Positions 2,529 to 10,561 of a stretch of DNA of 64,000 nt are shown here, one piece after another (within the stretch, counting starts at the first letter, position 1; every line of letters starts with the position of its first letter). The position numbers were made by a program, and so were the translations under genes. The DNA lies in contig NZ_JALIEB010000001.1 in NCBI RefSeq assembly GCF_025755255.1, positions 372,001 to 436,000 of the forward strand, written 5' to 3'. This DNA comes from Roseobacter sinensis (GTDB taxonomy: Bacteria; Pseudomonadota; Alphaproteobacteria; Rhodobacterales; Rhodobacteraceae). The notes below the pieces were generated by a model that made no database searches, was not told where the DNA came from, and saw nothing but the letters and a program-made list of their open reading frames with translations.

Positions 2529-3167
2529 ATGATCAAGACCACCACCCTTTCCGCCCTCATGATCTCCTCAGCCGCTCTGGCCTATGCTGGAAACCTCGAG
2601 CCGGCACCCGCCGAGCCCGTCGTCTTCGAACCGGCAGCCGTCGCCGCGCCGTTCTGGGCTGGCGGTTACGCCGGCGTTCAGCTTGGCTACGTCTACAGCG
2701 AATTCGACCTCGGCAGCGCGACGAGCCCCGACGATTTCGACGATGACAGCGTCATCGGCGGGTTCAACTTCGGCTATCTTTGGGAGCTCAACAACGGCTG
2801 GCACATCGGCCCGGAGTTCCAGTATGACTTCGCAGACGTCTCCGTTGCCGATGCAGGCACCGGCGACACCGCATCCTTCGACGAGATCGCCCGTCTGAAG
2901 CTGATCGTCGGTCGCGAAGTTGGCCAAGGCCTCGTCTACGGCAGCGCTGGCATTGCCTATGCCTCCTTCGACGATGTGGGTACGATTTTTGACGGGTTCG
3001 ACGGCAGCGACACGAACTACGTTCTCGGCTTCGGCTACGATCACCGCCTCGGCGAGAATTGGACGCTCGGTGGCGAGTATATGTACCACGCGTTCAACGG
3101 TGTGGGCGCGTCGGGTGGTGACGTCGATGTGAACACGCTTCACGTGAAGGCGACATACCGCTTCTGA
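2529..3167 (+). CDS. outer-membrane beta-barrel protein (Omp25/opacity type)
   Basis: A 212-residue secreted protein. The signal peptide is MIKTTTLSALMISSAALAYA, followed by a proline-rich linker (EPAPAEPVVFEPAAVAAPFW). After it comes a small eight-stranded-barrel pattern with alternating aromatics (GGYAGVQLGYVYSEF, FNFGYLWELNNGWHIGPE, VLGFGYDHRLGENWTLGGEYMYH) and a terminal aromatic strand VKATYRF. Such proteins sit in the outer membrane as abundant small porin-like or surface proteins. The ATG at 2529 is chosen because the signal peptide begins exactly there, although the frame stays open far upstream. A strong terminator follows. Confidence 0.85.
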   Translation: MIKTTTLSALMISSAALAYAGNLEPAPAEPVVFEPAAVAAPFWAGGYAGVQLGYVYSEFDLGSATSPDDFDDDSVIGGFNFGYLWELNNGWHIGPEFQYDFADVSVADAGTGDTASFDEIARLKLIVGREVGQGLVYGSAGIAYASFDDVGTIFDGFDGSDTNYVLGFGYDHRLGENWTLGGEYMYHAFNGVGASGGDVDVNTLHVKATYRF

Positions 3168-3215
3168 TGCCAGGCCGGTCCTCCCGGACCGCCTCCCAGC
3201 AGGCTGAATACAAGG

Positions 3216-3249
3216 AGCCCGGCGACGCTTTTGCGTGGCCGGGCTCCTT
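3216..3249 (+). terminator. intrinsic-terminator-like hairpin after the Omp gene
   Basis: A near-perfect stem pairs GGAGCCCGGC plus ACGC with GCGT plus GCCGGGCTCC around a TTTT loop, 48 nt after the Omp stop. Only a short T-rich tail (ttcgagttt) follows. The stem is very stable and likely ends the Omp mRNA; it may also block reading from the convergent side. Confidence 0.65.
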
Positions 3250-3295
3250 CGAGTTTGGCGGCGGGCCGCAATTGGCGCCTTGCAAAGCCGAAGGC

Positions 3296-3540
3296 CTAGG
3301 TTCGGATTGTACCAGCCGGGCCGCCCGACATCCCCTCGAAGGTCCAGGACTGGTGCACGGACACGGCACCGGCCAACCCAGGGTCCCAGACGCGTTCGGT
3401 CTTGACCCGCCAGCGGTATTCTAAGGAGACGCCGCGGAAGACCGGCGCCGGCAGCGTGAACGTGATCAGGGCGTAGAGCGCGGGCATCGCGATCGCATAA
3501 GCCAACAGAAAGCGGCAAAGTGCCCACCGCCCGAGAGGAA
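3296..3540 (-). pseudogene. remnant of cytochrome bd-type oxidase subunit II (cydB)
   Basis: Reading the minus strand gives GGGHFAAF, then after a frame slip LAYAIAMPALYALITF and FRGVSLEYRWR. These match the block of CydB/CioB subunits that normally reads like GGGxLFAAFPxAYAxxxPALY...FRGVxFEFR. Only about 70 of the usual 330 or more residues are left and the frame is broken. The cydA-like remnant is joined directly upstream, so a large internal deletion has fused the two genes. It cannot encode a working subunit. The match is from memory of the family. Confidence 0.62.
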
Positions 3541-3865
3541 GAAGGCCGCCAGCACTTCATTGGTCATCCGCGGTCTGATGATCGGGCCCACATTGTCGGA
3601 AAGAACGGATCAGTTCGTCCCAAACTGAGAGGACATCACGATGCCCGAGGCGACGCTCATGCCGAAGGCGACCGCGAAGATTTCCTTCCATTGGGTGAAG
3701 AGTGTCAGAAAAGTCTCATCGCCTGTCCGCAGTCAAAGTGCGTTGAGAATGGCGAGCTAGCTTGCCAAAACGATCGAGACTACCGGAAAAACGATGTGCA
3801 ACGAAACCGTGAACGCAAACTGCACACGCGCGCGCGTTCCACCGCTGAACCCTTTCAGTGCGACG
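3541..3865 (-). pseudogene. remnant of cytochrome bd-type oxidase subunit I (cydA), N-terminal part
   Basis: The minus strand reads RVQFAFTVSLHIVFPVVSIVLAS, stop, LAILNAL, stop, LRTGDETF, then FAVAFGMSVASGIVMSSQF, GTN, stop, and MTNEVLAAFF. These follow the start of CydA in order: the first transmembrane helix, the NALWLRTG block, the haem-ligand helix ending in QFGTNW, and the GYEVLTAFF block. Three in-frame stops (one TAG, two TGA) interrupt about 110 codons, and the remaining 350 or more residues of the subunit are missing. Both TGA codons replace tryptophans conserved in the family. It is an unambiguous dead fragment, 11 nt downstream of the peroxiredoxin gene. Confidence 0.72.
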
Positions 3866-3876
3866 CTGCCTTTTGT

Positions 3877-4509
3877 TTATCCGGAAATGTCGACCGTGCG
3901 CGGATACGGGGGAATCGTTTCGAAGCCCTGCGGGAACCTGATCTGCGCATCCGCGTCGGAAACCCTTGGCGGGATGATGGCGTGATCACCCGGCCGCCAA
4001 TTGGCGGGCAGGGCCACACCCGCCCGGCCTGCGGTCGTCAGCGCGTCGATCACGCGCAGGATTTCGTCGAAATTGCGCCCGACACTCATGGGGTAGGTCA
4101 TCGTGAGCCGCAGTGCCTTGGCATTGTCGACAACAAGGACCGACCGCACCGCAGCTGTCTCGGACTGCGCGGGATGGATCATCTCGTAGAGCGTCGCGAT
4201 CCGCAGATGCGGGTCTGCGACAATTGTAAAGCGCAATGTGGTGTTTTGCGTGTCGTTGACGTCGTCGATCCATTTCAGGTGCTCATCGACCGTGTCGGTG
4301 CTCAGCTCGATGGGTTTCACCCCACGCTCGGTGAAGGCCGCGCTCAGGTGCGACGTCCGGCCCATCTCGGTTGTACAAACCGGTGTGAAATCGGCGGGAT
4401 GGCTGAAGAAAAACGCTCAGTCGTCGCCAATCCAGTCTTGGAGGGAGATCGGCCCGAGCGTGGTATCGGCGGTGAATTCGGGAACGGTGTCGCCCAGAAG
4501 AAGTGGCAT
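3877..4509 (-). pseudogene. 1-Cys peroxiredoxin (Prx6 type) interrupted by one in-frame TGA
   Basis: The coding frame of 210 codons is whole except for a TGA at 4419-4417. Before it comes MPLLLGDTVPEFTADTTLG and SLQDWIGDD; after it AFFFSHPADFTPVCTTEMG, which holds the peroxidatic Cys. The C-terminal half continues normally through PANWRPGD. Family members have Trp where the TGA falls (GDDWA), so one TGG-to-TGA change explains the break. Peroxiredoxins of this type reduce peroxides in the cytoplasm. Readthrough would give a complete protein; reinitiation at ATG 4365 would lack the catalytic Cys. I treat it as a recent pseudogene. Confidence 0.85.
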
Positions 4510-4678
4510 GATGTCAGTCCTTTGCGATGGTTTCGCAAGCAGTAGCGCGGCTTGCCGGAGGTCATCGGTGATAGGATCACCCTGCCTGCTCGAATTTCGA
4601 ATTCTGGCCCTGAAACTTGTCTTGCAGGGGCGCAACGCCGGTGAGACCAGCGGCTGCGCGCTCTGCCAACCCGCTCAG

Positions 4679-5551
4679 CTAGGCAGAGGATTGGGCAACC
4701 GGTCGGGCTGGGTCTTGCTTCCAGACGGCAAATGATCCGTCGAAAAGCGTTCCCGGCGCACCGATCTGCGCCAATGCGAGGAGGATGACCGTCGCCGCAT
4801 AGCCGGAACCGCAGGTCGCGATTACCGGTTTCGAGCGCCAATCGGGCGCCAGCCTGTCGAGCGTGTCGTGCACTGCGGCCGGGTCAAGGAACAGCCCCGT
4901 CTCAGGGTCGAGAACCGCGCTATAGGGCACGTTGATCGAGCCCGGAATGTGGCCCGACCGCAGATCGTCTGCGGTGCCGTTGTAACTGACAGGGCCACGG
5001 GCATCGATCACGCAGGCGCTGGCCTGCAAGGTCATGAACCCGCCCAGGTCGACTTTCAGCCCATCGGCCAACCGCGGCTCGAAGGTGCCTTCACCCGGCT
5101 GCGCGGTGGTGCGTGACATGGGCAGGTTTCGCGCCTTCCAATGAGGCCACCCGCCATTCAGAACGCGCACGTTGGCAAAGCCCCAGTGCCGCATGGCCAG
5201 CCACATGCGACCGGCCAGCATATGGGACGAGGCATCATAGAGCACCACCAGATCATCGGCGTCGATACCGAGAGCCGCAAAGGATCCGTGCGCCGAAGCC
5301 TCATCCGCAATCGGCGCGAGGCCGATCGCAACGTCCTGCGCGTTGAAGTGCTTCGTCCAATCGAGGAAGACCGCGCCATCAATGTGGCCCTCTGCGTAGT
5401 CCCCCGGCAGGGCACGCGCCGGTGTCGACCACGTTCCGCGTACGTCGAAGACCTTGACGGTCGGGTCGTTCAGACAGCTGACCAGCTCGTCGGCCGAAAT
5501 CAGGGGGGACGCGCCGTCTATCACGCTTCGCCAGTGTCCTGCAGCAGTCAT
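4679..5551 (-). CDS. sulfurtransferase with two rhodanese domains
   Basis: A 290-residue protein of the thiosulfate / 3-mercaptopyruvate sulfurtransferase family, which passes sulfane sulfur from a donor to cyanide or thiols through a Cys persulfide. Rhodanese domain 1 spans about residues 10-135 (VKVFDVRGTW, PGDYAEGHIDGAVFLDW) and domain 2 about 155-285 (VIDARGPVSYNG, GHIPGSINVPY). The catalytic loop is CGSGYAA. The ATG at 5551 is favoured over the one at 5569 because GGAGG lies 7-8 nt upstream of it. It is the only clearly intact gene in a decaying sulfur-related cluster. Confidence 0.9.
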   Translation of the reverse strand: MTAAGHWRSVIDGASPLISADELVSCLNDPTVKVFDVRGTWSTPARALPGDYAEGHIDGAVFLDWTKHFNAQDVAIGLAPIADEASAHGSFAALGIDADDLVVLYDASSHMLAGRMWLAMRHWGFANVRVLNGGWPHWKARNLPMSRTTAQPGEGTFEPRLADGLKVDLGGFMTLQASACVIDARGPVSYNGTADDLRSGHIPGSINVPYSAVLDPETGLFLDPAAVHDTLDRLAPDWRSKPVIATCGSGYAATVILLALAQIGAPGTLFDGSFAVWKQDPARPVAQSSA

Positions 5552-5707
5552 ATTGTTAGCCTCCTCCATACCAAGCGTGGCGCGCCTGAGGAGGGCGCCA
5601 CTCGAACGAGCAATTTTTCAGACGTTGAGAACATGATGCGTATCTTCTCTCTGCTTGAGGGTTTCGTGCACCTACGCCTCTGCCTCGCAACTCTGACCTT
5701 TGAATGA

Positions 5708-6133
5708 TCATAGAGAAGTCGTGGAGAAAGCGGTACATGCGACGATTGGGCGTCGCCCTGCGATCGAGCCAAGCGCCAGCACCCCCTTGAGGCGGGCGTC
5801 GGGCGCCATCAGTTTGGCGGCCATCTGGTCGGGTTTGGCAACACCGATCCCATCCAGCAGGATCGACGCATCCTCGCCGCGACCAGGCAAGTAGATCGCA
5901 CAGACTTCAACGGTCGCGCCGGTCTTTTCGCGGATCATCTGCATCAGACCCCGGGGGCTCATCTCGCGCGGCGGCTGTCCGGCTATCGCGCTGGCCGGCG
6001 CGTTATGCAGCGCGATGTCACCGGCTGGCCCGCAGAGCAGGATATGCGCGTCAGCCCCCTGCTGCGCGGTCTGCATGGTCAGCACCATCGACATCAGCTG
6101 CATCTGGGGATCGGGCGATGTGACGACGGTCAC
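5708..6133 (-). CDS. DsrE-family protein, probably crippled (lost start and signal peptide)
   Basis: The frame TVVTSPDPQMQLMSMVL, GADAHILLCGPAGDIAL, MSPRGLMQMI and GATVEVCAIYLPG fits the DsrE/DsrF fold (sulfur-relay proteins of the TusD group). The only in-frame start is a GTG at 6133, already inside the first beta strand. Upstream the same frame continues back to 6205 as an evident signal peptide (FLAAAVSLATTTAALA), but no ATG, GTG or TTG begins it before the TAA. The C-terminus also runs about 20 residues past where I expect the family to end. It is probably a gene that has lost its start codon. Confidence 0.6.
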   Translation of the reverse strand: MTVVTSPDPQMQLMSMVLTMQTAQQGADAHILLCGPAGDIALHNAPASAIAGQPPREMSPRGLMQMIREKTGATVEVCAIYLPGRGEDASILLDGIGVAKPDQMAAKLMAPDARLKGVLALGSIAGRRPIVACTAFSTTSL

Positions 6134-6249
6134 AACCCTGGACGGCCCGCCCGCGAGCGCAGCGGTGGTTGTGGCAAGGCTGACGGCCGCGGCGAGGAAA
6201 ACGTGTTATGTGATCTCTCCGGTGAGTTTGGGGTTGGCAGGACAGGGCG

Positions 6250-6682
6250 GAGACACCGCCCCAGGTGGTTTGGTGGTCGGATGCGACCAACCGCGTCGCT
6301 GCCGGCTCAGGCATCGGGCCGGTCGGTCGTGCGTCTGGACCCACGAGAGAGTCCAGCGTGTAGACGGGGATCGCCAGACCGACTGCGCCGACGAGCGCAA
6401 TGCCGGTCAGCAGCGGAACATCGATGGGTCCGGCAAGATCGGACGGAGCGGACCCGTCATTGCCAGCATGAACCAGACCGCGAGGATCGCCCCGGCCGGC
6501 ATGGAAAATTGTACGTAGTGGAACTTCTTCCAGCTCACCGACCGGTCGCGGATCAGGACAAAGAGATAACCCAGAGTCACGACAATGGCAGCGGCGATCA
6601 TCAGCCACAGCACCCCTTGACCAAAGATCTCCTGCGCCACGGCGAAGAGATCAGCCAGCGCCCGCCCGACCCGTGTGGTCAT
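6250..6682 (-). pseudogene. DUF5368-like membrane protein, frameshifted
   Basis: From the ATG at 6682 the frame encodes FAVAQEIFGQGVLWLMIAAA, IVVTLGYLFVLIRDR, SVSWKKFHYVQFSMPAGAI and LAVWFMLAMTGPL, then a stop at 6407. The expected continuation GPIDVPLLTGIALVGAVGLA and IPVYTLDSLVG appears in another frame from about 6430. One indel near 6416-6430 therefore breaks a small three-helix membrane protein. The pattern resembles DUF5368 proteins of Rhodobacteraceae; I am moderately sure of that name. The 3' limit is approximate because the second frame has no early stop. It lies 22 nt after the SQR-like pseudogene. Confidence 0.65.
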
Positions 6683-6703
6683 CGGGCAGGAGGTATAGCC
6701 ATC

Positions 6704-7811
6704 CTAGCGCTTGGTGCCGTCCTGCCCGGAGATGGCGGCGACCAGGTGATCTTCGACGAGGGGGACCTGCCATTTCACCGAGCCCGCGGTTTTCCCCTTC
6801 GGCACGCCGGCCACGTCGCCCAGAGCGAAGATGTCGGCGTAGCGCCTGTGGCGAAGCGTCTGCATGTCGACCTCGACCCGGCCCTGATCGGTCCATTTGT
6901 CCGCCCAGGACAAACCGGATTGGCGGACGAACGCGGGCGCGCGTTGTGGCGGGATGACGTGCAGATAGTCGTAGCCGAGCGTCTCGGAGCCACCTTCGGA
7001 GACGAAGGTTGCCGTCTTCCGATCCGCGTCGATTGCTGTCAGGGTGCGGTTCATCAGCGTCTCGACACCGCGCTCTTGCAACGGCATCCGACCTTTTCTG
7101 CGACAATCGGCACTGAAAAGAGCGACGACTGCGGCGCGGCGTAGATCATGTTGACGCGATTCGCGTTGCCAGCCTTGCGCGCGATGTCATCGATCAAGAA
7201 TGTATGCTTCAAGGGTGCGCGGCACATTTCATTTCGGTGGCCGGGCGCGTGAACAGGCCGGTGCCGCCTTCCTGCGTGAAGCGTTCGGCGGCCTTCCGGG
7301 TGCGTGTGGCATAGTCCGGCCCCGCGTATGGGGCGCCGATCCCGTTTTGCCCGACCATATCGAGGCTGAACCTGTCGATGGCGTCGTGATCAAGAACGAG
7401 ACCGGGGGCGACGACCAGCCAGTCGTACTCCAGAGTTGTGCCGCTTTCCGTCGCCACTGCCTTCCTCTCGGCATCGATGGCCGCGACTCGCTCCGGCAAC
7501 CATTCGATACCGTTCGGCAGCCATCTGGCTGTCTGGGATTGGAGGTAGTGCGCGGGTTTCAGGCTCGTCGCAACAAGCGTCAGCCCGGGTTGGTCGAGGT
7601 GTTCGCACCGTGGATCGATCAGAGTGATCTGCACGCCGTCCAGTCGCTTGACCAACCGGTTCGCCAGGGCCGTCCCGGCGGCTCCCGCACCGATGATGAC
7701 AATGCGTGCCGGGGTGGTGAGCGGTGAGGGGTTTGTCTGTGTTTCCCTGGCGTGAAGCCCAAGCGCGCCACTTCCAGCCAGCGCAACCTTGAGGAACTGT
7801 CGTCTGTCCAT
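6704..7811 (-). pseudogene. sulfide:quinone-reductase-like FAD flavoprotein with two frameshifts
   Basis: The start encodes a Tat-like signal (MDRRQFLKVALAGSGALGL), then an FAD dinucleotide fold IVIIGAGAAGTALANRL and TRPATEMKCA, which carries the motif cysteine of SQR-type proteins. After an insertion near 7210-7220 the frame changes (PLKHTFLIDDIARKAGN, IYAAPQSSLFSVPIVAEKVG), and it changes again near 7090, continuing as MPLQERGVETLMNRTL and YADIFALGDVAGVPKGKTAG to a stop at 6704. Pasted together it is a full-length enzyme of about 365 residues of the SQR / flavocytochrome c flavoprotein group. Two independent indels make it non-functional. Confidence 0.82.
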
Positions 7812-8125
7812 ACGTCCACTTTCGAACTCTGATCGCTCGCCTGTCGGCCGACCACGCACCAGAAGTTTCATCGTTAGCGCTATGGGTTAAACGTCCCGTG
7901 ATAGGATCTGCGGTGACAACATCACCGAACCAGGAAAGATCGTGGCTGCGGACCCGAAAGAAGCGTGCCGGTCCGGCTGGCGAGGACGGTAGTGGGTCTG
8001 ACGTATTGAGGCATGTTCAAATCCGATGAGCGGGGGAAGACCTGCACGTCTGTGCACTGTGTTCCGCTGCGAAACACCGCCCAATGTTCAAGGTACAAAC
8101 AGCCCTCGTTCGAAACCAAACGGCC
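7812..8125. other. 314-bp stretch with no recognisable gene
   Basis: This lies between the start of the SQR-like pseudogene (minus) and the stop of the dehydrogenase gene (minus). It should hold the old promoter of the sulfur cluster. Short frames exist on both strands, but none has a recognisable motif or a good ribosome-binding site. I see no convincing hairpin terminator or operator. Confidence 0.5.
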
Positions 8126-10561
8126 CTAGCTGCGCATGCGCGTGTGATCTGGATCGTAGGGTCCAGCGGCCACAACGCGCGCGGGGCGTGCCGCGCCGAC
8201 AATATCGACGGTGAGGGTGTTGGCCTCCCGCGCTTCAGAGGGCTGCACGAATGCGCAGGCGAGGTTGAGCCCCGTTCGGTGACCCCAGGCGCCTGATGTT
8301 ACGGTTCCGACGATCTTTCCGTGCCGTCGCACCGAGGCGCCGCTGTGCGCGGGCGCGTCATCGGCGTCGATCGACAAGGTGGCAAGCTTTCTTCTGGGGC
8401 CTTTAGCCTGCCGCCTGATCAGGGCCTCCCTACCAATGAAACCGGGTTTCGACAGCTTCACGAAGCGGTCAAGCCCGGTCTCGAAGGGGTCAAACTCGGT
8501 CAGGATCTCCGACTTCCAATGCAGAAAGCCCTTCTCGAGCCGCATCGACTCGACAGCGCGCGACCCGAAGAGCCGCAGATCGAAAGCCTCACCCGCCCGT
8601 CGCAGCGCAAGGTAAGCGGCATGAAGGCTCTCGTTCGGGACGTGGATTTCATAGGCCAGCTCGCCAGAGAAGCTGACGCCGAGGACCGTGACCGGGGCAA
8701 TGCCGATGTAGGCTTCGCGGACGGACAGCCACGGAAAGGCGTGGCGTGACCAATCCCCCCGAGATGCGGCTGACAGCACCTTCCGCGCCTTCGGGCCAGC
8801 CAGCACGAGGATCGTCTGCGCGTTCGTCAGCGAGCGAATGGAAACCTCTTCGTCGGGGCGGAGATGGGCGGTCAGCCAGTCCATGTCGTGATACTCGGAT
8901 GCGGCGGCTGACCCGTACCAGATGCGGTCCGGGCCCCGGTTCGAGGCCGGGAGAGTGGCAATCGTCGCCTCGCCCTTCAGCGTGCCGTGATGATTGAGCA
9001 GATAGCCAAGCCCCACTCTGCCGGGGTGTCGTGGCACCGTGCCGCAAATCATCCTGTCGAGAAACGCATGCGCGCCCGGGCCGGTGATTTCAAAGCGGTT
9101 GAATCCCGAAACCTCGGTCAGCCCGACGGAGGCGGCGACCGCCTGCACCTCCTCGGCCACGACATCATGGACCTCATTGAACGTGAAGCCCGGGGTCTCG
9201 GCAAACTCCGGTGATGGCTTGATATAGTCGATCCGCTCCCACCCATTCACCGGTTCGAAGGCGGCGCCTTCCGCGCCGAGAACGGGGGTCAATGGCGTTG
9301 TCTTCATGGGACGCCCGGCGGGTCGGTGTTCATGCGGGAAGTGGAAGCGGAACTCGTTCTGATAGTCCTCGACCGCTTTCAGAGCGGTCAGCTCCACGGT
9401 CGCATGATCGGTGAAGCGGCGGGGGTCGATGACCCAGGTGTCATACTGCGCTTCACCATGCACGATCTGCTGGGCGAGGAGCCAGCCGTGCCCGCCGCCT
9501 TCGCCCAGGCCGGCCCTGAGCCCGACGATGCAGAACGCGTTGCGCTTGCCGGGGATTGGGCCGACGAGAGGCGCGCCATCCATGGTGTAGGTGATCGGGC
9601 CGTTGACGACACTTCGGATGCCGGTCTCCATCAAGGCGGGCATCCGTGCAAAGGCCCCTTCGAGCACGTCGGTCACGCGGTCCAGATCATCGGGGCAGAG
9701 ATCGTTGGAAAACTTGGGATCGATCCCGTCCAACCCCCACGTGCGGCAGTCCTGCTCGTAAAACCCGAGCAGGAGCCCGCCTTTTTCCTGCCGGCAATAG
9801 TAGTCGCTCATCGGGCATCGCAAGAGCGGCATCCGATGCCCCGCCTCGGCGATGGCGGGGATATCTTCGGTCAGAAAATACTGATGTTCCATCGCGGCGA
9901 CGGGATGGCTGACCCCCATCATTGCGCCGATTTCATTGCAGCGGTACCCGCCCGCATTCACCACGATCGCGGCGTTGACGTTCCCTTTCTCCGTGTGAAC
10001 CGTCCAGCTGTGGTCGGGATGCTGGGTCAGCCCGGTCACGGGGGTGTGCCGGTTGACCTCCGCGCCCGCAAGGCGCGCGCGCCGCGCGAGGGCCTGACAG
10101 AGCTGCGCGGGGTCGATGTGCCCATCCGTCGGGTCCCAGAGCCCGCCGAGCAGATTCTCCGTGGAGATCAGCGGATGCCGGCGCGCGCATTCTGCGGCGT
10201 CGATCACTTCGAAGGTCACGCCCATCCCGGCGGCCATGGAGGCAAAATGGCGGTAGCCATCCATCTGTGCCTCGGAATTCGCGAGCCGAATCCCACCATC
10301 GCCGTGATTGTAGCCCACCGGGTAATCGGGATCGTCCCGCAACTCCTGATACAGCGCGATGGAGTGGCTTTTCAGGCCGACCATCGTCTGCGTCTGGCCG
10401 AAATTGGTCACCTGCGCGGCCGAGTGCCAGGTCGTGCCGGAGGTCAATTCATCACGCTCGATCAGCATGACATCGCCCCAGCCTTCCTGCGTCAGGTGAT
10501 AGAGCGTCGAGCATCCCGCAATGCCGCCGCCAATGACCACCACTCTTGCTTGATCACGCAT
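8126..10561 (-). CDS. FAD-dependent oxidoreductase fused to GcvT domain (dimethylglycine/sarcosine dehydrogenase-like)
   Basis: An 811-residue enzyme with an N-terminal FAD domain (VVVIGGGIAGCSTLYHL; SGTTWHSAAQ, with the His that carries FAD covalently in this family; VNGPITYTMDGAPLVGP) and a C-terminal folate-binding GcvT/aminomethyltransferase domain (GFNRFEITGPGAHAFLDRM; FSGELAYEIHVPNE; ESMRLEKGFLHW; FVKLSKPGFIGREAL). Such enzymes oxidatively N-demethylate methylated glycines and pass formaldehyde to tetrahydrofolate. The exact substrate cannot be read from sequence. A LysR gene lies upstream on the same strand, and a dyad in the spacer matches one before that regulator. Confidence 0.88.
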   Translation of the reverse strand: MRDQARVVVIGGGIAGCSTLYHLTQEGWGDVMLIERDELTSGTTWHSAAQVTNFGQTQTMVGLKSHSIALYQELRDDPDYPVGYNHGDGGIRLANSEAQMDGYRHFASMAAGMGVTFEVIDAAECARRHPLISTENLLGGLWDPTDGHIDPAQLCQALARRARLAGAEVNRHTPVTGLTQHPDHSWTVHTEKGNVNAAIVVNAGGYRCNEIGAMMGVSHPVAAMEHQYFLTEDIPAIAEAGHRMPLLRCPMSDYYCRQEKGGLLLGFYEQDCRTWGLDGIDPKFSNDLCPDDLDRVTDVLEGAFARMPALMETGIRSVVNGPITYTMDGAPLVGPIPGKRNAFCIVGLRAGLGEGGGHGWLLAQQIVHGEAQYDTWVIDPRRFTDHATVELTALKAVEDYQNEFRFHFPHEHRPAGRPMKTTPLTPVLGAEGAAFEPVNGWERIDYIKPSPEFAETPGFTFNEVHDVVAEEVQAVAASVGLTEVSGFNRFEITGPGAHAFLDRMICGTVPRHPGRVGLGYLLNHHGTLKGEATIATLPASNRGPDRIWYGSAAASEYHDMDWLTAHLRPDEEVSIRSLTNAQTILVLAGPKARKVLSAASRGDWSRHAFPWLSVREAYIGIAPVTVLGVSFSGELAYEIHVPNESLHAAYLALRRAGEAFDLRLFGSRAVESMRLEKGFLHWKSEILTEFDPFETGLDRFVKLSKPGFIGREALIRRQAKGPRRKLATLSIDADDAPAHSGASVRRHGKIVGTVTSGAWGHRTGLNLACAFVQPSEAREANTLTVDIVGAARPARVVAAGPYDPDHTRMRS

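Follow-up and report, generated by a model that had tools for sequence, protein, structure and literature searches.

In Roseobacter sinensis (4.9 Mb genome, 77 contigs), a stretch of 64,000 nucleotides (the window; G000:C16:372001-436000) carries on its minus strand, at positions 3296-7811, what is very probably a dead composite locus for sulfide oxidation, in which two sulfide modules would have been joined, SQR-dependent sulfide oxidation lost, and a rhodanese kept for another task. The six loci specify a flavoprotein resembling sulfide:quinone oxidoreductase (SQR), a DUF5368 membrane protein, a DsrE-like protein, a rhodanese, a peroxiredoxin (Prx) and remnants of a cytochrome bd oxidase. 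Five of them (SQR, DUF5368, DsrE-like, Prx and cydAB) are broken, and the rhodanese is the sole open frame. This reading is built on the lesions, on neighbourhoods conserved in relatives and on a genome search that found no other intact copy of this SQR.

Frame and profile analysis bears out an earlier note on this DNA that described six minus-strand loci with five damaged and the rhodanese alone intact, and finds the damage to be larger than was noted. The lesions it listed (two frameshifts in SQR, one in DUF5368, a lost start in the DsrE-like gene, a stop in Prx, and a stop plus a deletion in the cyd genes) are all present. The list was incomplete, however, as it lacked a TAG codon in SQR, the deletion that fuses SQR to DUF5368, the abnormal C-terminus of the DsrE-like protein and extra stops in cydA. 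Altogether about 12 disabling lesions (our own count) are found in ~5.2 kb of intact-equivalent sequence, and include stops, frameshifts, a lost start and deletions of about 0.2 and 1.3 kb (Table 1).

Table 1. Features of the decayed locus, with positions in the window
Feature	Position	Strand	State	Basis or remark
SQR pseudogene	6656..7811	-	frame shifted twice; TAG 6704-6706 in frame; last ~47 codons missing; fused to DUF5368	Pyr_redox_2; pieces aligned to 62 intact homologues
DUF5368 membrane-protein pseudogene	6318..6658	-	N-terminus lost in SQR fusion; one frameshift near 6452-6455	PF17336 in two frames
DsrE-like pseudogene	5708..6205	-	start lost (TAA 6206-6208); C-terminus overruns	family label weak
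Tandem-rhodanese sulfurtransferase, 3-mercaptopyruvate type	4679..5551	-	open frame (4679-5569)	
1-Cys-type peroxiredoxin pseudogene	3877..4509	-	TGA 4417-4419 ahead of FTPVCT motif	intact orthologues adjoin cydAB
cydA remnant	3526..3876	-	codons ~1-112 of ~470; three in-frame stops	
cydB remnant	3296..3511	-	codons ~72-119 of ~333; other frame than cydA; 3' part missing	

The intact relatives of the SQR and DUF5368 genes were drawn from genomes in which DUF5368 scores above its cut-off (24 of 193 and 89 of 394, R. sinensis included each time), which amount to 90 other genomes; wide regions were compared for 62 of these. In all 62 loci the SQR frame is at least 433 amino acids long, and the intact DUF5368 proteins have 115-184. 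The SQR-like sequence of the window, with its start at 7811, is spread over three frames (7212-7814, 7090-7245 and 6656-7120), and therefore two frameshifts are needed to read it. The PF07992 profile is present in both SQR pieces, with E-values of 1.3e-12 (above the cut-off) and 1.6e-5 (25.0 bits, just below the cut-off of 26.1). Around 6656 the SQR reading is joined in frame to the N-terminal part of DUF5368, the last ~47 SQR codons and the first DUF5368 codons being gone in a deletion that we estimate at ~0.2 kb. Positions 8-73 of the DUF5368 profile lie in one frame (6455-6652; 79.6 bits, cut-off 25) and positions 75-111 in another (6342-6452; 28.2 bits), and this split implies one frameshift. 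Among solved structures, an intact SQR homologue (L067) is closest to human SQOR (PDB 6mo6, 6oi5); the match is nearly full-length (residues 38-443 of 445, E = 1.5e-61), with the cysteine motifs KCAGAP and GYTSCP aligned, and both cysteines (L067 positions 198 and 388) are present throughout the intact homologues (62 of 62). The family differs from the human enzyme in a twin-arginine-like N-terminus (54 of 62 by a lenient pattern) and in the adjoining DUF5368 gene, and the window copy differs further in being broken: it retains both cysteine codons, but in different frames, and the in-frame TAG precedes the second.

In the DsrE-like frame no ATG, GTG or TTG follows the TAA before a GTG at 6133, so that the start is considered lost, and the C-terminus runs about 23 residues past the end of the six intact relatives compared. 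In the Prx gene the TGA breaks the frame, and the AhpC/TSA and 1-cysPrx_C domains both match downstream of it, as does the FTPVCT motif, which we take to be the peroxidatic-cysteine site. CydA and CydB are both incomplete. The cydA remnant, interrupted at 3757-3759, 3733-3735 and 3610-3612, covers positions 2-100 of the 418 in the CydA profile, and of cydB, joined to it across a deletion of about 1.3 kb, 48 aligned columns remain; what remains of cydAB is nearer to the short CydA of congeners than to bd-I. That the locus still works in part, with the N-terminal domain of SQR or a DsrE-like protein started at GTG 6133 being made and used, is very improbable: of the invariant residues covered, 119 of 130 are indeed retained in the SQR pieces and 38 of 43 in the DsrE-like protein, but the second SQR cysteine lies in another frame behind the TAG with the C-terminus gone, a product from GTG 6133 would be without the N-terminal hydrophobic segment, and Prx stops ahead of its FTPVCT motif.

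Least credible of all is that the broken frames are errors of sequencing or assembly in a functional cluster. The draft state of the assembly with its 77 contigs may speak for such errors, but the roughly dozen lesions are of varied kinds and fall in these five genes, whereas the flanking 2.2-2.3 kb on each side preserve frame against congeners: on the left, 1-2232 aligns to 2235 bases of one congener (G011), and on the right 8247-10561 aligns to 2315 bases of another (G002), neither with a net change of frame. This alignment control is independent of the choice of open frames. By comparison, the absence of internal stops from eight flanking open frames (6708 nt; P = 2e-7) is illustrative only, since those frames were picked as open. 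A further point against errors is a loss of invariant residues greater than in the majority of intact relatives, which is clearest for cydAB, Prx and DsrE.

The genes of the locus belong to two conserved neighbourhoods in relatives. In every compared locus (62 of 62) SQR and DUF5368 are neighbours in the same orientation; the pair is accompanied by CydA (same strand, no more than ~9 kb away) in 19 of 62, by a DsrE-like gene in 19 of 62 (one on the opposite strand) and a Prx of 43-45% identity in 6 of 62. A search with Prx found 13 of 394 genomes including R. sinensis, and 11 of the 12 others were compared. Nine of these 11 Prx loci have a Blh-fused SQR, a persulfide dioxygenase and SulP nearby, seven have CydAB, and two have neither. 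Among congeners, two (G010, G016) carry the locus of Blh-fused SQR, persulfide dioxygenase, SulP and Prx with CydAB, another (G003) has Prx-CydAB-DsrE with a shortened dioxygenase, and a fourth (G012) has the Blh-fused SQR, the dioxygenase, SulP and DsrE, with Prx and cydAB unmatched in the region examined. The Prx-CydAB half of the locus matches the Blh-fused SQR loci of congeners and other genera that contain CydAB (L123, L124, L222), with Prx 73% identical to L124 and cydA 66% identical to L123; these loci differ from the window in their SQR, they have no relative of this rhodanese, and DUF5368 is missing from the congeners. In one genome (G233, L172) CydDCAB-SQR-DUF5368-DsrE and a Prx share 18.5 kb with an additional, Blh-fused SQR and a SulP-like gene, the last two identified by match and reading. 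In trees, the window DsrE groups with L169, L170 and L172, all of them SQR-DUF5368 loci (support 0.87), and the window Prx falls beside that of L225 (support 0.94), which belongs to the Blh-SQR loci. Because of these two placements, and because the relatives of the rhodanese are located elsewhere, the locus is read as joining an SQR-DUF5368-DsrE module, such as lies beside CydDCAB in other genera, to a Prx-CydAB module, such as lies beside the Blh-fused SQR and persulfide dioxygenase in congeners. The sulfide theme that the earlier note had proposed from family names is thus supported by synteny, as two conserved modules exist in relatives; its view of the six loci as one ancestral cluster is not supported, since their matches fall into two modules that are each conserved on their own, with the rhodanese relatives lying apart.

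Two side observations concern the Prx-CydAB loci. In G003 (L122) the match to the persulfide dioxygenase is limited to residues 3-179 of 293, and the Blh-fused SQR and SulP are unmatched in the 19.5 kb examined, which suggests that here a sulfide locus has eroded separately, as a second case. A TniQ gene (L123:15504-17345) and a tyrosine-recombinase-like gene, named by reading (L222:13886-15073), adjoin intact Prx-CydAB sulfide loci, hinting at mobility of these loci.

The surviving rhodanese could begin at the first possible ATG (5569), and more likely begins at ATG 5551, which lies behind the ribosome-binding-like GGAGGAGG. PF00581 matches it in two stretches, PDB 1urh matches with E = 1.3e-27, and it keeps a CGSGYAA loop, presumably the CGSG-type active-site loop of 3-mercaptopyruvate sulfurtransferase and tandem rhodaneses; the score against the NCBIfam equivalog NF008557 is below cut-off, at 123 of 250 bits. 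A relative of this rhodanese was found in none of the 62 SQR-DUF5368 loci and none of the 11 Prx loci (tblastn at 1e-6). Six near relatives (50-69%; Tateyamaria, Actibacterium, Amylibacter) are present in the contig collection, and no match to SQR-DUF5368, Prx or cydAB lies beside them within 12.5-17 kb; in four Tateyamaria loci a phosphatase-like gene precedes the rhodanese and an azoreductase-like gene follows it (names by sequence reading). The nearest relative (L089:3538-4509, 69%, uncultured Tateyamaria) has an in-frame stop at ~3945, between frames 3538-3945 and 3961-4509. Conservation was judged on a panel of five distinct relatives, with L089 left out for its interrupted frame; L181, a duplicate of L091, was kept in the first panel and removed from the size-matched one, and both give 105 of 110 invariant residues kept. 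The loss of 5/110 is lower than that of all broken loci pooled (62/400, p = 0.002) and of the broken loci without cydAB (34/301, p = 0.04). The rhodanese is likely still under selection and, judging by where its relatives lie, would have an origin separate from both sulfide modules; its survival may be explained by service in another task.

It is unlikely that all six genes, rhodanese included, made up a single ancestral operon that was lost step by step, in a sequence still legible in the lesions. All six genes are co-directional, and the loss of invariant residues is graded in the way such an account would have it, from cydAB (28/99) through DUF5368 (7/33), Prx (11/95), DsrE (5/43) and SQR (11/130) to the rhodanese (5/110). 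No relative of the rhodanese was found, however, in either kind of conserved locus, and the 12 lesions in ~5.2 kb are distributed over the genes as expected from one common rate (multinomial p = 0.81), which lends no support to the earlier note's proposal that graded damage would allow the order of loss to be reconstructed. Residue loss, a weaker measure than lesion count and taken on panels that differ in size and diversity, singles out cydAB (Fisher test, p = 1.4e-4 against SQR, 0.004 against Prx, 0.03 against DsrE, but no difference from DUF5368 at 0.5), the cyd panel, with 10 members, being smaller and less varied than the others. Without cydAB the differences among the broken genes are not significant, the smallest p being 0.057 (DUF5368 against SQR). 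Before counting, relatives of CydA and CydB below 60%, of Prx below 65% and of the rhodanese below 45% identity were removed. In size-matched panels cydAB still shows the highest loss (intact controls 0-1) and the rhodanese the lowest (controls 0). Thus cydAB may have been released first, and an order of loss beyond cydAB cannot be claimed.

A number of results weigh against the reading of the locus as a dead composite with a rhodanese kept under selection. No intact six-gene locus in the order of the window was found, whether through the rhodanese (99 + 394 genomes and the contig collection) or through DUF5368 or Prx, in a search that compared regions from 62 of the 90 other DUF5368 genomes and 11 of the 12 other Prx genomes; of the intact syntenic cluster in relatives that the earlier note had set as a check, the SQR-DUF5368 (62/62) and Prx-CydAB modules are there intact, and the exact order of six was not found. 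DUF5368 occurs in 0 of 18 congeners, so that a source inside the genus is unsupported, and the placement of the window SQR in its tree is poorly supported (0.23-0.48). The DsrE label, taken over from the earlier note, is weak: PF02635 matches one of seven members with E = 0.058, the family profile matches YchN in the PDB at 0.15, and a single-sequence fold is unusable (predicted local distance difference test score 37). As to selection, the rhodanese does not differ significantly from SQR, DsrE and Prx pooled (27/268, p = 0.10), nor from SQR (p = 0.30), DsrE (0.14) or Prx (0.07) alone; its freedom from lesions is by itself not significant (P = 0.13), and its panel of five is small. As to decay, broken and intact genes still have similar third-position G+C content (GC3), with no clear drift. 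In the size-matched panels 0-2 intact homologues per gene reach the loss in the window (up to two for SQR, DUF5368 and DsrE), and in the first panels the worst intact homologues keep fewer invariants than the window does (0.848 vs 0.915 for SQR, 0.543 vs 0.788 for DUF5368).

Searches of the R. sinensis genome, made query by query, found no intact copy of this SQR elsewhere when an intact SQR was used as query. Besides the broken pieces, the only matches are to a 419-amino-acid flavoprotein (28%; SoxF-like by reading) and a short one (34%) in an unrelated frame of 811 amino acids. The SoxF-like flavoprotein is downstream of SoxC (TIGR04555, above cut-off), with two cytochrome-c-like frames between them. 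A second cydAB is present, 42% identical to the CydA of the module, as are three matches to persulfide dioxygenase (77, 74 and 41%), and around the first two of these no Blh-fused SQR was found in 16-17 kb. The strain has probably lost SQR-dependent sulfide oxidation.

From its relatives, the intact SQR would have oxidized H2S to sulfane sulfur, with the quinone pool as electron acceptor. Its membrane partner may have been DUF5368, which has two to three hydrophobic segments. The DsrE-like protein and peroxiredoxin may have dealt with persulfides or with by-products of oxidation, while the bd-type quinol oxidase would have delivered electrons to O2 under sulfide. The bd oxidases of E. coli are reported to resist sulfide (PMC4815019). 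The SqrR regulon of Rhodobacter capsulatus comprises sulfide-induced SQR, peroxiredoxin, sulfurtransferase and rhodanese genes (PMC9995734); there, however, they have far-apart locus numbers (rcc00528, 00785, 01181, 01557) and thus do not form one cluster. In Paracoccus denitrificans PD1222, plasmid 1 (NC_008688.1) has an intact pair annotated as an FAD/NAD(P)-binding oxidoreductase and DUF5368 (PDEN_RS23370 and PDEN_RS23375) within 9 kb of genes for ArsR, a TIGR01244 sulfur transferase, YeeE/YedE and MBL proteins, and no annotated peroxiredoxin, rhodanese or cytochrome bd in 18 kb. Nitratireductor sp. OM-1 has the SQR-DUF5368 pair with no annotated sulfur genes across 16 kb. In the literature searched, no paper names DUF5368, and none was found that brings cytochrome bd and peroxiredoxin together with persulfide dioxygenase and sulfide quinone.

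The surroundings of the locus add a few observations. No sigma-70 promoter was found in a scan of 3150-8150 and no tRNA in the window, and an empty site is not definable in congeners, as the two flanks (1-2240, 8247-10561), where both match, are on different contigs or distant. The 29 bases at 6639-6667 are identical to C16:309890-309918, ~69 kb away on the same contig, where no match to the cluster proteins was found, and occur in full length at one place each in three congeners. Positions 1-1798 encode in a row a carbonic anhydrase (PF00484), a membrane protein of 325 amino acids and a P-II-like protein (PF00543); the membrane protein resembles an SbtA-type bicarbonate transporter by sequence reading and has no NCBIfam match. 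This stretch is matched in 18 of 18 congeners, in some partly or as two pieces.

Decay of sulfide-oxidation genes at this locus is well supported, real and of a known kind; pseudogene clusters are common, and decay in itself is ordinary. The most interesting lead is the fixed pairing of SQR and DUF5368. It is conceivable, as a tentative proposal that we do not hold to be the likelier case, that DUF5368 is the dedicated membrane subunit of a twin-arginine-exported, SQOR-like SQR widespread in Rhodobacterales, the pair making up a sulfide dehydrogenase of two parts that faces the periplasm and feeds electrons to cytochrome bd, with the surviving rhodanese kept for an unrelated task. Since the uncharacterised DUF5368 lies beside an SQOR-like enzyme in every locus compared, its role is directly testable. 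For the organism, the strain represents a natural loss of this SQR in which SoxC, the SoxF-like flavoprotein and persulfide dioxygenases are retained, and it could reveal which sulfide routes such a cell can spare.

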